From: Gammaproteobacteria bacterium
GTDB lineage: Bacteria; Pseudomonadota; Gammaproteobacteria; Arenicellales; Poriferihabitantaceae
DNA: 43,490 nucleotides
Assembly: GCA_030590945.1 (NCBI GenBank)
Contig: JAUVBY010000007.1
Location: 1-43,490, forward strand
Direction: 5' to 3'
The position numbers were made by a program, and so were the translations under genes. Position 1 is the stretch's first letter. Each line of letters begins with the position of its first letter. Positions 11,120-20,990 of the stretch are shown in pieces. A model generated the notes under the pieces. The model did not search any database. It was not told where the DNA came from and was given only the letters and a program-made list of their open reading frames with translations.

Positions 11120-12289
11120 TTAAAGAGATTTGGCAGCATCACGCAAGAGATCAGCCTTGTCGGTACGCTCCCAGGTGAATTCCAGTTCGGTACGGCCAAA
11201 GTGGCCATAAGCAGCAGTATTACGATAAATCGGACGCAATAAATCCAGCATCTGGACGATGCCCTTGGGGCGCAGATCAAAATGTTCGGTAATCAACGCC
11301 TCGATCTTGTCATCATCGATGGTCCCGCTTCCATAGGTATCCACCATGATAGATACAGGCTCCGCCACGCCGATGGCATAGGCAATCTGTACCTGGCACT
11401 GGCTCGCCAGACCTGCAGCGACAATATTTTTGGCGACATACCGGGTAGCATACGCCGCCGAACGATCGACCTTTGATGGATCTTTGCCGGAAAACGCACC
11501 CCCCCCGTGTGGAGCCGCACCACCGTAGGTATCCACGATAATCTTTCGACCGGTTAAACCACAATCACCTACCGGCCCGCCAATCACAAAGCGCCCTGTG
11601 GGGTTCACCAGAAAACGGGTTTTATCGGAAATCATATTACCCGGCAGTACCGGTTTGATAATTTCTTCGATCACCGCTTCTTCAAGCATTTTGTGATCCA
11701 CTTCTTCGCTATGCTGGGTAGATAACACCACGGTTTCAATACCCACCGGCTGGCCATCTTCGTAACGAACCGATACCTGTGATTTCGCATCCGGTCGCAA
11801 CCAGGTCAAGGCCCCGGATTTACGTACGTCGGCCTGTTTTTTGACCAGGCGATGCGCGTAATCAATCGCAAAAGGCATCAGGGTGTCTGTTTCATCACAG
11901 GCATAACCAAACATCAGGCCCTGGTCTCCGGCGCCCTGGTTCAAATCCAGGCCTTCTCCCTCGTTCACCCCCTGCGCGATATCCACAGATTGCTTGTCCA
12001 GCGCTACCAGTACCGCGCAGCTTTTGTAATCAAAGCCCATATCACTATGGTTATAACCGATGTCTTTGATCGTGCTTCGCACCACATCCTGATAGTCAAT
12101 GTTTGCGTCAGAGGTGATCTCGCCGGCGATCACCGCCATGCCGGTGGTCACCATAGTTTCGCAGGCAACGCGCGACGCAGGGTCTTGTGCCAGCAAGGCA
12201 TCGAGCACCGCATCAGAAATTTGATCGGCTACTTTATCCGGGTGTCCTTCAGATACTGATTCTGAGGTAAATAAGAAATTTCTGGCCAT
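11120..12289 (-). CDS. metK: S-adenosylmethionine synthetase
   Basis: 389 residues; makes S-adenosylmethionine from methionine and ATP. It shows [23 protein letters not shown] (ATP and metal site), [16 protein letters not shown], and the active-site loop region [25 protein letters not shown]. The length is usual for the family. The ATG is preceded by AGGAG at a 6-base spacing. A near-perfect palindrome about 70 bases upstream (12360-12381) is the likely operator for the metK-ahcY operon. Confidence 0.97.
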
Positions 12290-12381: not shown

Positions 12382-12482
12382 TTTTGGATGATACCACAAA
12401 GTACCCAAAATTGCATTGGAAATGCTTATCCACTTGTCGACTTTAGAGGCTAAAATCTGCGAAGTGCCAGCTACAAACTAAT

Positions 12483-12553
12483 TTCACGGACACAAAGACC
12501 GCAGAGGACACGTAGAAAAGCAATATTTATTTGTGCTGCGATCTCTGTTTTTA
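12483..12553. repeat. Degenerate member of the ACACAGAG dispersed repeat
   Basis: ACGGACACAAAGACCGCAGA on the left and ATCTCTGTTTTT on the right form an imperfect, partly decayed version of the intergenic repeats at 13469 and 39411. It lies in the gap between divergent metK and the DMT transporter gene. Confidence 0.4.
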
Positions 12554-12570
12554 ACTTATACAATCAGAAA

Positions 12571-13470
12571 ATGAACGACCAGAAACAATCCATGATAAAA
12601 GGCGTCTTCTCAGGTTATATGATGATGTTGCTGACTGCCGTCATCTGGGGTTTTGCTTTTGTGGCGCAAAAAAGCTCGATGGACTATATGGGGCCGTTTA
12701 CATTCAATACAGCACGTTTTGTGTTGGGTGCCACGTGCCTGCTGGTGCTGCTGCCAATGTTTAAACCCAGGCACGGTGCGTTGGGAAAATCAGGCTGGTT
12801 TAGCGCGACCGGGATGGGTGTATTATTGTTTCTGGGCTCCATCACCCAGCAGATCGGCCTGGTCAGCACTACCGCGGGTAAAGGCGCGTTCATTACCGGA
12901 CTGTATATCGTTTTCGTGCCACTGATACTCGCCCTGTTTGGCCAGGCTTTATCGCGGCTGGTCTGGATTGCGGTGGCACTGGGTTTGAGCGGCTTATATC
13001 TGCTCAGCATGCAGGGCGCGACAATGAAACCGGTCACGGGTGATATGTGGGTACTGGCGTCAGCGGTCTTTTTTGCGCTGCATATCGTTGTCATTGGCCG
13101 TGCCTCACTGGAACACGATGCGCTGCGTCTTTCAATTGTTCAATTTTATGTCTGTGCTCTGCTGAGCATGGTCGGCATGCTGATTTGGGAAACGCCCAGC
13201 CTGCAAGCCATTTCGGACGGTAGCATTGAAATTTTATATGCCGGAGTGTTATCGGTTGGCATCGCCTATACCCTGCAGGTTTTTGCGCAGATACGCATTC
13301 CACCACACGCAGCAGCACTGGTTTTGTCGCTGGAAACTGTATTTGGCGCCATTGGCGGCGTGTGGTTGCTGGGCGAGGAAATGACCACGCGTATGCTGAT
13401 TGGCGCGGGGCTGATGATGGCCGCGATTATCGTGGCGCAGTTCAAGCGTTCTGTAGACAGTGATGTTTAA
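12571..13470 (+). CDS. DMT superfamily (EamA) transporter
   Basis: 299 residues with about ten hydrophobic helices arranged as two EamA repeats. AVIWGFAFVAQKSSMDYMGPFTFNTARF is the typical first-repeat entry; ALHIVVIGRASLEHDALRLSIVQF begins the second, and EPVFGA-like SLETVFGAIGGVWLLGEEMT is the family's late motif. Members export amino acids, metabolites or drugs from the cytoplasm; the substrate is unknown. It stands alone, divergent from metK and convergent with the rnm end of the mla operon. Confidence 0.85.
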   Translation: MNDQKQSMIKGVFSGYMMMLLTAVIWGFAFVAQKSSMDYMGPFTFNTARFVLGATCLLVLLPMFKPRHGALGKSGWFSATGMGVLLFLGSITQQIGLVSTTAGKGAFITGLYIVFVPLILALFGQALSRLVWIAVALGLSGLYLLSMQGATMKPVTGDMWVLASAVFFALHIVVIGRASLEHDALRLSIVQFYVCALLSMVGMLIWETPSLQAISDGSIEILYAGVLSVGIAYTLQVFAQIRIPPHAAALVLSLETVFGAIGGVWLLGEEMTTRMLIGAGLMMAAIIVAQFKRSVDSDV

Positions 13471-13522
13471 CACAGAGAGCAAAGAGATTATTTTTCTCTG
13501 TGTACTCTATGATATCTGTGTT
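13469..13522. repeat. ACACAGAG-type palindromic intergenic repeat
   Basis: AACACAGAGAGCAAAGAGA on the left and TTTCTCTGTG...ATATCTGTGTT on the right pair imperfectly. It starts within the stop codon of the DMT gene and could end transcripts from both convergent genes. It is the same family as 39411-39471. Confidence 0.65.
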
Positions 13523-13560
13523 CAAATTAAGATTTTAGGGCACTCAATACCACGCCTCAG

Positions 13561-14409
13561 CTAGGATATTTTTAACCCGGCCTCCCAGATCGGCGTGCAG
13601 CGATAATGCATCGGCGGCAATCGACCCAGCTGAACCCAGGGTTTGTCCGGGCCATGATAATCAGATCCCTGCGAAGCGGGAAATCCGAAATCCAGGGCGT
13701 GTTGCGCCATGGTCTGGTTTTCATCCTTGCTGTGGCAACCGGACACCACCTCAATACCATCTGCACCCAGCGTCTTTAGTTCTTTAAACAGGCTACGCAG
13801 CTTCGTGCGGCTTAAATTGTAGCGTGCGGGATGAGCCAGAACGGCTACGCCGCTGGATTGATGAATAAGATTTATGCCGGCCTCCAGGCTCATCCACTCG
13901 CCGCGTACATGACCCGGCTTTCCTTTAACCAAAAAGCGTTTGAACACCTGGCGGAAATCTTTGGCATGCCCCTGTTCTACCAGGTGACGCGCAAAATGCG
14001 AGCGGCCGATCAGGTCCGTTCTGGCCATCTTGCGGGCGCCATCCAGCGCATTTTCAACACCAATATCTTCCAGCTTTCGGGCAATTTCTTTGGCACGCCA
14101 GCGCCGAAAATCAAGCACCTTTTGCAGCGCAATAGTCAGATCAGAGTTGCTTGTATCGATATTCAGCCCAAGCAAATGCAAGGTGCGCCCGGACCACATG
14201 ACGGACAACTCGATTCCGGGAATAAGCTTGATATCGTTTTTGTCCGCAGCGAGCTGCGCTTCTGCAATGCCCGCAACACAATCATGATCGGTTAAAGCCA
14301 GCGCCGTGACACCCGCCTTCGAGGCCTGCAATACCAGATCTGCAGGAGATAAAGTGCCATCAGAAGCAGTCGAATGCGTATGTAAATCAATCACGGTGAG
14401 ACTCGACAA
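13561..14409 (-). CDS. rnm: PHP-domain phosphoesterase, RNase AM / 3',5'-nucleotide phosphatase type
   Basis: 282 residues. The PHP start IDLHTHSTASDGTLSP and LALTDHD supply the clustered metal-binding His/Asp. LIPGIELSVMWSGRTLHLLGL, GVAVLAHPARY and GSDYHGP complete the trinuclear site. It matches the E. coli YciV (Rnm) family, which trims 5' ends of RNA and hydrolyses 3',5'-bisphosphate nucleotides. The start is probably TTG at 14409: AAGGTG overlaps the stop of mlaB and lies 5 bases before it. It is the last gene of the mla operon. Confidence 0.85.
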   Translation of the reverse strand: MSSLTVIDLHTHSTASDGTLSPADLVLQASKAGVTALALTDHDCVAGIAEAQLAADKNDIKLIPGIELSVMWSGRTLHLLGLNIDTSNSDLTIALQKVLDFRRWRAKEIARKLEDIGVENALDGARKMARTDLIGRSHFARHLVEQGHAKDFRQVFKRFLVKGKPGHVRGEWMSLEAGINLIHQSSGVAVLAHPARYNLSRTKLRSLFKELKTLGADGIEVVSGCHSKDENQTMAQHALDFGFPASQGSDYHGPDKPWVQLGRLPPMHYRCTPIWEAGLKIS

Positions 14410-17684: not shown

Positions 17685-19280
17685 TCAATCTTCGGCGTCC
17701 AGACCCAGCATCAGCTTGTTTATTTGTGCCAGCGGTACACCTAAATTGGACCCACCGTACTCGGGCAGTATAGCCGCATTAACGGCAACCAGCTCACCGG
17801 CTGAGGTCAGAACCGGGCCGCCTGAACCACCCTTGGTCGTATCCGCATCATAGGCTATGGCGTCTATGCTGACCTGCCCGACAATTCCCCGGCTCGCCAG
17901 AGGTTGAATAAGGTTTTTCTCGGCCAGCGCCCGGGCGATTGACCAGAAATCCAGGCCTTCTTCTGTAATTCGATCGATGAATTGCTGGCTGCTTCTCGCT
18001 ACCAATGCGCGCAATCCGGTGGGGTAACCCAGTACAAACACCTCATCTCCGGGGCTCGGCTGCTGGCTTGAGATAACGATGTGTGGAATGTCGTCGGTTA
18101 CCCCGGAGCACCTTAAGATAGCCAGATCCGCATCGCTACTGAGCTTCTCCTGCACGACGTCAAACGGTTCTTTTATGCCAGGCAGATAACCAATAAATTT
18201 TTCAAGCACCGGCTCAATATCATTGCCTTGCATTACCTCCAGAGCCGGGTCCTCGCCCCAGGGGCGAGCCACATGCCGGTTGGTCATCAAACGCCCGGAT
18301 GATGAAATCACAAAAGCCGTACCACTAAATTGATTGGACGCCACCGGGCCTTCTCCGTCAAAAGACATGACCGGCCGACCATCAAGCGTTAATATCGGGC
18401 CTCCCGCCTCAGAAATCACATAGCGCATTTTCCGACCGGTTTCACGCTCCTGGTAAACCCATGCGCCCTGTAGAAACACGATCGCACGTGAGGCTTCGGT
18501 TACAACACGCTGCGCCGCGCCGGACTTAAGCTCCAGCGCCGTGACACGCTGCCTGGCCTCGGACAGGCCGGAACTGATAAGCAGGCTAAGATCATTGAGC
18601 TCATTTCGTGAGATAAATTCAGCCTGTTGTTTTCTCACCCAGTCGGTGGCCGAACTGAGTTCCGCCAATTGGGCGGCCAGATTTTGTTCCGTGATTCGGC
18701 TGGTATTCCATTGCATCAGGACCAGACCCGCCAGTACCGCCAGAATAGCGATAACGGATAACCTGAATATCAGCCCGCTGCGGACGGAAATATCCGTTAC
18801 CATGTTGACCGGCAATCGTACGGCAAACCCGGCCCAGCCCGTCGATTCAAAGCGGGTACGTTTTACGCAATCAGTAAACAGGCCACCCAGCTCGACTTCA
18901 TTGCCACCGGTCGCTGAAGCGAACCCGTATTTGAGCAACAACGGAGGTTCTTCAATTTCTATAATATCCCCGCGACTCAGGACCGCACTCAAAACCAGCG
19001 CGCCATTCAGGCGTATGGCGGCCTCGCGATTACTTTCGAGTTCAAAGCCTCCTTCGGCGGGGTGAAAACGAGCCAGCGTCTCGCGTGCGTCTGGTTCTGT
19101 GGCATCTTCACTAATCACCGCGCCCTGTACCGGATCCAGCTTCAGGTGATAAGTTTGATCTTCTTCCAGCCTGAAGATTTTACCGCGATGAACACCAGAC
19201 AGACAGGTGAGTGCCGGAATATCCTTACTACCGGACGTATTCCCGGAACGCTCCTCTTGTTTGCTTGTTGCACTCAACAT
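17685..19280 (-). CDS. FHA-like / transmembrane / trypsin-like serine protease
   Basis: 531 residues. Residues ~22-120 resemble a forkhead-associated domain (LTCLSGVHRGKIFRLEEDQ, then LNGALVLSAVLSRGDIIEIEE), but the GR and SxxH residues that bind phosphothreonine are absent. One membrane helix lies at ~168-189, followed by a probable coiled coil (~195-265). Residues ~315-528 form a trypsin-like domain with the triad H336 (MTNRHVA), D385 (DADLAIL) and S486 (KGGSGGPV). The likely topology is a cytoplasmic FHA-like part and a periplasmic protease. There is no PDZ domain, unlike DegP/DegS. It stands alone, and the substrate is unknown. Confidence 0.75.
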   Translation of the reverse strand: MLSATSKQEERSGNTSGSKDIPALTCLSGVHRGKIFRLEEDQTYHLKLDPVQGAVISEDATEPDARETLARFHPAEGGFELESNREAAIRLNGALVLSAVLSRGDIIEIEEPPLLLKYGFASATGGNEVELGGLFTDCVKRTRFESTGWAGFAVRLPVNMVTDISVRSGLIFRLSVIAILAVLAGLVLMQWNTSRITEQNLAAQLAELSSATDWVRKQQAEFISRNELNDLSLLISSGLSEARQRVTALELKSGAAQRVVTEASRAIVFLQGAWVYQERETGRKMRYVISEAGGPILTLDGRPVMSFDGEGPVASNQFSGTAFVISSSGRLMTNRHVARPWGEDPALEVMQGNDIEPVLEKFIGYLPGIKEPFDVVQEKLSSDADLAILRCSGVTDDIPHIVISSQQPSPGDEVFVLGYPTGLRALVARSSQQFIDRITEEGLDFWSIARALAEKNLIQPLASRGIVGQVSIDAIAYDADTTKGGSGGPVLTSAGELVAVNAAILPEYGGSNLGVPLAQINKLMLGLDAED

Positions 19281-19366: not shown

Positions 19367-19795
19367 TTAGTCCTGAACGCGCACCGCCAGCACATCGCAC
19401 TTTGCGATATGCAATACACCGGTCGCCGTAGAACCCAGCAATAAGCCAAAGCCATGCCGCCCATGACTTCCAAGGACAATTAGATCGGCCTCGATCTCAG
19501 CAGCGTAGTCGATGATCACCCCTTTGGGTGGGCCGTGCCCGATGTGCGTGTTCTGGAACTTGATACCCAGCCTCGCCACACAGGCATCCATGTCCTCCTT
19601 TGCCTTTTCATTTAGACGCTCTTCAATGTTCGGCAGCATTGCCAGACCACCTTCAAGTTGCATGCTGGGGTAATAGTCCACCACATGCACCAGGCTGAGT
19701 TGTGCACCGTATTTTTGTGCCACTTCAACCGCGCGCCTTTCCGCGCGCTCAGCCTCAGGGGAAAAATCACTTGCCAGAAGAATATTTTTATACAT
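19367..19795 (-). CDS. Universal stress protein (UspA family)
   Basis: 142 residues, single Usp domain. It begins KNILLASDFSPEAERAERRAVEVA and ends with the ATP-binding loop GSHGRHGFGLLLGSTATGVL, so it should bind nucleotide. A perfect AGGAGG precedes the ATG. An FNR/Anr-like box lies about 85 bases upstream, which would fit induction at low oxygen as for many Usp genes. Confidence 0.92.
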   Translation of the reverse strand: MYKNILLASDFSPEAERAERRAVEVAQKYGAQLSLVHVVDYYPSMQLEGGLAMLPNIEERLNEKAKEDMDACVARLGIKFQNTHIGHGPPKGVIIDYAAEIEADLIVLGSHGRHGFGLLLGSTATGVLHIAKCDVLAVRVQD

Positions 19796-19969: not shown

Positions 19970-20662
19970 CTAAGCGAGGCCCATCAGTTCGGTCAGTGTT
20001 CGCGCTTCCATCGCCCGATGAACGCTTTGCTTCGCTGGTTCAAAAAACAGGCCGGCCCGGATATTCTTCTCGATGGATGGCCGAAGCCGATGCAACACGG
20101 ATTTTATATCGCGTAAGCTTTGACAGGGCAGGAAAACCACCTGATAGTCAGCGGGTAAACTGGGCGCATCTGATTGGCGCGGATCCCAGACAAGGCCCGC
20201 TCCACATGTTTGTGCAAGAGATTTTTGTGTTTGAATATCCAGTGTTTTACTATAAATATTAATCACATAACACGCTGAAATTGCGGAATAAGCCGCCATT
20301 CGTTCCGGCGTCGAATTGTCATCTACATTGACCACAATGCAGGCGATATTTTGTGCCAGAGGCGCAAGCGCGGATAACGCGGTTTTTATATCCTGCGCAT
20401 CTGTCAGCGGCGGCCACTCGATGATGAGTTCAAAGCGATCATCCATCTCAGACGCAATCTCGGCAATCTTCGCCTCGGGCCCGAACCAGCTCGCGCAGGA
20501 AAGATACACGGCCCCAAAATCGTTCATAAAATAGGCCAGACGCCATTCTTCCGGACAGTTTTCAGGATAATACTGATCGTCCCACAGCGGGTTTTCAAAT
20601 CCCATGGTACTGCAAACGCACCGCGCGCACGAAGACAGAAAAGGCGGATTATCGAGACTCAT
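19970..20662 (-). CDS. Unrecognised protein, weakly DUF72-like, coupled to traR/dksA-like gene
   Basis: 230 residues from the ATG at 20662 (MSLDNPPF). The frame opens further up only with TTG. The start overlaps the end of the TraR-like gene by 14 bases. WDDQYYPENCPEEWRLAYFMNDFGAVYLS resembles the opening of DUF72 TIM-barrel proteins (YPE...W..Y...F..VE), and FELIIEWPPLTDAQD suggests a second strand, but the DUF72 catalytic-like residues are not clear. A second possible start is MGFENP at 20605, after a short cysteine-containing leader. No function can be assigned. Confidence 0.65.
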   Translation of the reverse strand: MSLDNPPFLSSCARCVCSTMGFENPLWDDQYYPENCPEEWRLAYFMNDFGAVYLSCASWFGPEAKIAEIASEMDDRFELIIEWPPLTDAQDIKTALSALAPLAQNIACIVVNVDDNSTPERMAAYSAISACYVINIYSKTLDIQTQKSLAQTCGAGLVWDPRQSDAPSLPADYQVVFLPCQSLRDIKSVLHRLRPSIEKNIRAGLFFEPAKQSVHRAMEARTLTELMGLA

Positions 20663-20990
20663 TTTTCTGCGCACATGTAATGCAAAATGGTGCAGCAGGG
20701 TCAAGCATCAAACGCCCGTGCGCAATTTCTTCTCCACAGTCCTCACAATAGCCGTAATCACCCTCAGCCATATTTTTGAGCGCGGCATCCAGGCGGCTAA
20801 TCTCAATTTTGCGTCGGCGCTGTGCTTCCTGGTTCATCGCCTGAGATTGCATCGCGTCCATCCGGGATAAACGCCCTACACGGGTTTGGTCCAGAACAAC
20901 CGTATCACAGCCAGCTTCTGCCTGCGCCTGAAGAGCCTGTAATTCTTTTATCCTGCTTTGAGTTTGAATTTTGAGTTTTGTAGTTTGCAT
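20649..20990 (-). CDS. TraR/DksA family zinc-finger protein
   Basis: 113 residues. An N-terminal helical region (~1-75) precedes a C4 zinc finger, YCEDCGEEIAHGRLMLDP...FCITC, with all four cysteines. DksA-family proteins enter the secondary channel of RNA polymerase and alter initiation together with ppGpp. At 113 residues it is shorter than DksA (about 150) and longer than TraR (about 73), and the DxxDxA tip motif is not obvious. The next gene overlaps its end, so the two are likely made together. Confidence 0.85.
   Translation of the reverse strand: MQTTKLKIQTQSRIKELQALQAQAEAGCDTVVLDQTRVGRLSRMDAMQSQAMNQEAQRRRKIEISRLDAALKNMAEGDYGYCEDCGEEIAHGRLMLDPAAPFCITCAQKNESR

Follow-up and report, generated by a model that had tools for sequence, protein, structure and literature searches.

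Related systems and layout of the window protease

HtrA/Deg proteases (DegP, DegS, HtrA1; S1C) carry a chymotrypsin-type domain with a His-Asp-Ser triad that is followed by at least one C-terminal PDZ domain. The HtrA proteins studied to date assemble into homo-oligomers with the trimer as their basic unit, N-terminal truncation of the H. pylori HtrA abolishes trimers, and DegS is anchored in the membrane by its N-terminus (PMC11642142). A cytoplasmic FHA fold with a degenerate phosphothreonine (pThr) pocket, one transmembrane (TM) helix and a periplasmic C-terminal part are found in YscD, PrgH and CdsD (SctD; PMC3635987). Mutations of the PrgH/YscD pThr pocket had no effect on secretion; assembly, in contrast, requires the FHA-type domain, as its deletion from PrgH resulted in immature basal bodies (PMC3635987). 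Finally, an FHA-FHA-trypsin layout was catalogued in 2008 for NP_811686.1 from Bacteroides thetaiotaomicron (PMC2605481).

The window, i.e., the whole stretch of 43,490 nucleotides that was analysed, encodes a 531-aa protease on its minus strand (ATG at 19280, stop at 17685-17687). From the N- to the C-terminus, the protein is composed of an FHA fold (residues ~20-122), a TM helix (~170-193), a coiled coil (194-264) and an HtrA-like protease domain (267-531), as listed in Table 1. The AlphaFold2 model of the full-length protein shows an N-terminal beta-sandwich followed by helices, a long helical stretch and the protease. The same domain order is found in homologs with 28-48% identity, which excludes a chance ORF or a mis-assembly. 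Conservation was assessed in the alignment A1 (13 rows, identities to the window protein of 28-84%) and in a larger homolog alignment (24 rows).

Table 1. Features of the protease gene and its upstream neighbour (positions refer to the window).
Feature	Position	Strand	Basis
Universal stress protein (Usp) gene, 86 bp upstream, same strand	19367..19795	-	Usp E=1.1e-35
Whole protease gene, 531 aa	17685..19280	-	ORF; homologs match along full length
FHA-fold domain, predicted cytoplasmic, residues 20-122, pThr pocket residues absent	18915..19223	-	AF2 model, Foldseek, homolog Pfam matches, pocket columns
Linker helices, residues 123-169, D137 invariant	18774..18914	-	model, conservation
Single TM helix, ~residues 170-193, predicted N-in, F172 and R173 conserved	18702..18773	-	hydropathy, flanking charges
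Predicted periplasmic coiled coil, residues 194-264	18489..18701	-	model helices; heptad pattern around 228-260
RhxxhE putative trimerization motif R245-V-T-A-L-E250	18531..18548	-	25/25 homologs covering motif
HtrA-like protease domain, residues 267-531, no PDZ after	17688..18482	-	Trypsin_2, Foldseek, PDB profile search
Extension before His-bearing strand, residues 279-312, length variable	18345..18446	-	alignment
Catalytic His336 (TNRHVA)	18273..18275	-	alignments
Catalytic Asp385 (DADLAIL)	18126..18128	-	alignments
Helical insertion, residues 422-458, between GYPTG and SRGIVGQ	17907..18017	-	model helices 422-428, 432-441, 445-454
Catalytic Ser486 (GGSGGP)	17823..17825	-	alignments

The initial annotation had called this layout non-standard compared to DegP and DegS, and our analysis confirms that the combination of FHA fold, one TM helix, coil and trypsin-like domain without PDZ is real. 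Its description of the individual parts was equally borne out: a single segment (170-188, KD 2.7) is strongly hydrophobic, the coil is predicted as long helices, parts of which are modelled at low confidence, and the triad H336/D385/S486 is intact and invariant in A1 as well as in the larger homolog set. No PDZ domain was found by Pfam, neither in the window protein nor in the family matches of the 13 members, and the chain stops 45 aa past Ser486.

With regard to topology, the N-side flank of the hydrophobic segment has a net positive charge in 23/24 homologs. Given the positive-inside rule, this points to an N-in orientation with a cytoplasmic FHA domain and a periplasmic protease. That is, the protein would be an inner-membrane protease whose catalytic domain lies outside the cytoplasm and whose FHA-type domain faces inwards, which is a rare and apparently unstudied combination of familiar parts. 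Among the open-licence papers searched, no literature on an FHA-TM-coil-HtrA layout was found beyond the 2008 catalogue entry, which the initial annotation had missed. NP_811686.1, likened here by its catalogued domain order only, shares the FHA domain N-terminal to the trypsin domain but has two FHA domains and stems from another phylum. We consider it reasonably likely that the protein is an HtrA-like protease which lacks a PDZ domain, acts as a membrane-tethered trimer and uses its FHA domain for docking independently of phosphorylation.

That the protease is HtrA-like was missed by the initial annotation. Beside the Pfam Trypsin_2 match (320-500, E=6.2e-18), Foldseek groups the protease domain with HtrA1, DegS, DegP and the H. 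pylori HtrA (E ~1e-12), and the A1 profile search against the PDB retrieves HtrA, HTRA1 and the membrane-associated protease 3k6z/3k6y, which we take to be Rv3671c/MarP. The latter, a membrane-associated serine protease, resembles the window protease only weakly in sequence; it has several TM helices and, to our knowledge, neither an FHA domain nor a coiled coil. With HtrA/Deg, the window protein shares the protease fold, the motifs GxxF/TN.HV, DlAvl and G.SGGP and the triad as well as, with DegS, the N-terminal membrane anchor, but it differs by the missing PDZ, the N-terminal FHA fold and coil, the insertion 422-458 and a low overall similarity. None of the NCBIfam equivalog cut-offs for DegP, DegS, HhoA and MarP is reached (best 34.2 bits vs. 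a cut-off of 450). The genome's own DegP shows 27% identity to the window protease over 194 aa, and the insertion 422-458 is much shorter or missing there. DegP and a smaller HtrA-like protein are the two other Trypsin_2 proteins of this genome, which also encodes an RseA_N protein, such that the window protease is an additional protease.

Some variation was observed around the active site elsewhere. The homologs at L064:8627-10249 and L065:8741-10363 show the Ser motif variants GGSGGA and GASGGA and the His motifs LLTTRHVA / LLTARHVA, with His and Ser kept. Close to the FHA-less homolog, L030:12526-13500 (minus strand) encodes an HtrA-like protein whose C-terminal region resembles a PDZ domain; in place of the catalytic His and Ser motifs it reads LTIGYIV and PSWGGAAL, such that both appear to be lost and the protein is a possible pseudoprotease. 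A defence system was also considered and rejected, since the PADLOC matches (RT-Protease_XI, 6e-11) span the protease domain only.

Distribution and gene neighbourhood

A search for the same architecture in other genomes, as proposed by the initial annotation, found the family in part of the order, in the class sample and on a Ruegeria plasmid. Within the order, 19/109 genomes carry it, and in the class sample 7/369 do (own genome counted). For the phylum-wide sample of 398 genomes, only the own genome matches at E<=1e-15. The family is thus sparse, the plasmid copy of Ruegeria sp. THAF33 (31.6% identity over 98%) notwithstanding. The reading frame of this copy (L079) covers the FHA part: the match begins at 12001, the annotated CDS (12460-13599) at 12460. 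One contig (C63 of genome G052) holds two family copies far apart, at ~20 kb and ~186 kb.

In the window, the protease gene is located between the Usp gene and mlaFEDCB. The same gene order is found at L022, the only same-genus copy detected in a contig scan of the genomes, and the Usp arrangement was seen only within the genus. The initial annotation had further pointed to conserved neighbours as a check. Neighbours differ between lineages, and none of them points to a partner or substrate. A conserved operon was rejected, since clustering the neighbours of 24 loci revealed conservation mainly within genera. Likewise, Usp was dismissed as a partner, given that 1 to 23 Usp matches per genome make proximity weak evidence.

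Other features of the loci were noticed in passing. Hsp20 genes lie within ~8 kb of the protease gene at L033, L063, L070, L071 and L079 (Ruegeria), an observation made post hoc; at L079 the Hsp20 gene is directly upstream of it. A 244-aa protein without Pfam match is encoded at 19970-20704 (minus strand) of the window and overlaps a DksA/TraR-type zinc-finger gene (20649-20990, minus strand); both genes are conserved at the same-genus locus. The promoter scan remained at chance level, and 6 terminator-like sites were found where 3.3 are expected.

The FHA-fold domain and its lost phosphothreonine pocket

For the isolated N-terminal domain (residues 1-123), the AlphaFold2 model reaches a pLDDT of 88.4. 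With E-values up to 0.001, Foldseek yields 25 PDB matches; each of the listed ones is either an FHA or SctD-type domain itself or a complex or fragment that contains one (GarA, OdhI, YscD, CdsD, Ki67, KIF13A, DgcB). By model and Foldseek, these residues form an FHA beta-sandwich, and no alternative fold was seen among the matches listed. Pfam reports no FHA match for the window protein by itself. Among the 13 members, Yop-YscD_cpl is the commonest N-terminal Pfam family (6/13, best 3e-6), and FHA is matched by 4/13 (best 8.9e-5). The FHA fold suggested by the initial annotation is therefore well founded, and so is the loss of pThr-binding residues noted there, which turns out to be family-wide. 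We mapped the pocket positions via an alignment through the Rv1747 match. The pocket residues GR, S, H and N (GR, SxxH, NG) correspond to K47-L48, R66, L69 and A87 in the window protein, i.e., none is kept.

Comparison with the same-genus homolog results in dN values of 0.091 for the FHA domain and, close to it, 0.060 for the protease against a dS of ~1.8 (saturated), so that both domains are under constraint. Such strong purifying selection argues against a vestigial FHA domain, as estimated from these sequences, and it also speaks, along with the positions R32, G33, N92, L101 and D105 that are invariant in the homologs covering them, against a plain membrane-anchored quality-control protease whose FHA domain only folds and anchors, without regulatory or docking role. 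On the other hand, such a plain anchor would fit the homolog L011, which consists of TM, coil and protease without an FHA domain, as well as the lack of conserved neighbours. We regard this explanation as possible but unlikely.

The protease might also be controlled by phosphorylation, i.e., its FHA domain would still read pThr produced by the genome's Ser/Thr kinases and switch periplasmic proteolysis from inside. The own genome has three Pkinase genes above the cut-off, and a kinase is found in 19/19 family-bearing genomes of the order compared to 64/90 others (Fisher p=0.003), but genome size and phylogeny act as confounders here (3/3 vs. 6/21 within the own family, p=0.04). Among the homologs, the R of GR is present in 7/21 and His in 6/21, but Ser only in 1/21 and Asn in 2/22, and a complete pocket is absent from every homolog examined (21-22 per column). 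Because the pocket is lost, pThr control becomes less likely, and we judge it to be rather improbable. We consider it highly improbable that the protein is a building block of a YscD/PrgH-related envelope machine in which the protease would be a passenger: the topology is the same (FHA, one TM, periplasmic part) and Yop-YscD_cpl has the most N-terminal member matches, but the triad is intact and invariant, the periplasmic part is a serine protease and not ring-building domains, the flanking genes are Usp and mla, and no T3SS or other secretion-system genes were recognised among the neighbours examined.

Coiled coil and proposed mode of action

For the helical stretch, the model shows helices at 170-218, 225-252 and 254-264, with low pLDDT (42-49) in parts. 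Between R173 and F269 of the 24-row alignment, conservation reaches 85% or more at R245, L249 and E250 only; at position 246, every sequence has a large hydrophobic residue. Together they make up an R-h-x-x-h-E motif, with the registers R(g)-h(a)-x-x-h(d)-E(e) inside the predicted coiled coil. All homologs that extend over this region (25/25) contain it, at a constant distance of 23 residues ahead of F[LIV]QG. This invariant motif was missed by the initial annotation and is an addition to its account. About 6% of shuffled coil sequences contain RhxxhE anywhere, and the 25 homologs are related by descent, i.e., they are not 25 independent events. What gives the motif's conservation its weight is that the rest of the coil is variable. 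R-hxxhE is a determinant of parallel three-stranded coiled coils, yet it is also found in some dimers (PMC3653964; also PMC5940361). Given the sequence pattern, the motif suggests a trimeric protease, probably held as such by the conserved coiled coil.

We thus return to the preferred reading of a tethered trimer with an FHA docking domain. Fixed by its inner-membrane tether, the HtrA-like protease domain would reside in the periplasm. HtrA enzymes depend on trimer formation; in this PDZ-less protein, the coil with its invariant RhxxhE would probably secure the trimer or bring it into register. The FHA domain, with its pThr pocket lost, would most likely serve phosphorylation-independent docking as in YscD/PrgH of type III secretion, for which PrgH is, by analogy, the closest working model. 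Docking would set the protease beside a cytoplasmic or membrane partner, and the state of this partner may be passed across the membrane. The initial annotation had suggested a scaffold or sensor that controls the protease across the membrane, a role that stays hypothetical here. If the enzyme is active, it would likely serve the quality control of envelope proteins at its site or cleave in a regulated manner, side by side with the canonical DegP. The partly low-confidence model of the coil, the lack of a conserved neighbour indicating partner or substrate and the FHA-less homolog L011 count against this reading. More speculative, and in our view doubtful, is an inside-out device, i.e., a cytoplasmic partner would bind the degenerate FHA domains of the trimer, the coil would relay this across the membrane and the periplasmic protease would be switched, which would be the reverse of DegS.

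In the sole annotated public record found (Ruegeria), the predicted gene start has been placed past the FHA half; this may partly explain why the layout went unnoticed. Normally, HtrA enzymes are under the control of PDZ domains, which sense signals of the compartment where these domains themselves reside. A family without PDZ, with a trimerization signature and a putative cytoplasmic docking domain, would therefore provide a simple system for asking whether the cytoplasm can control a periplasmic protease.
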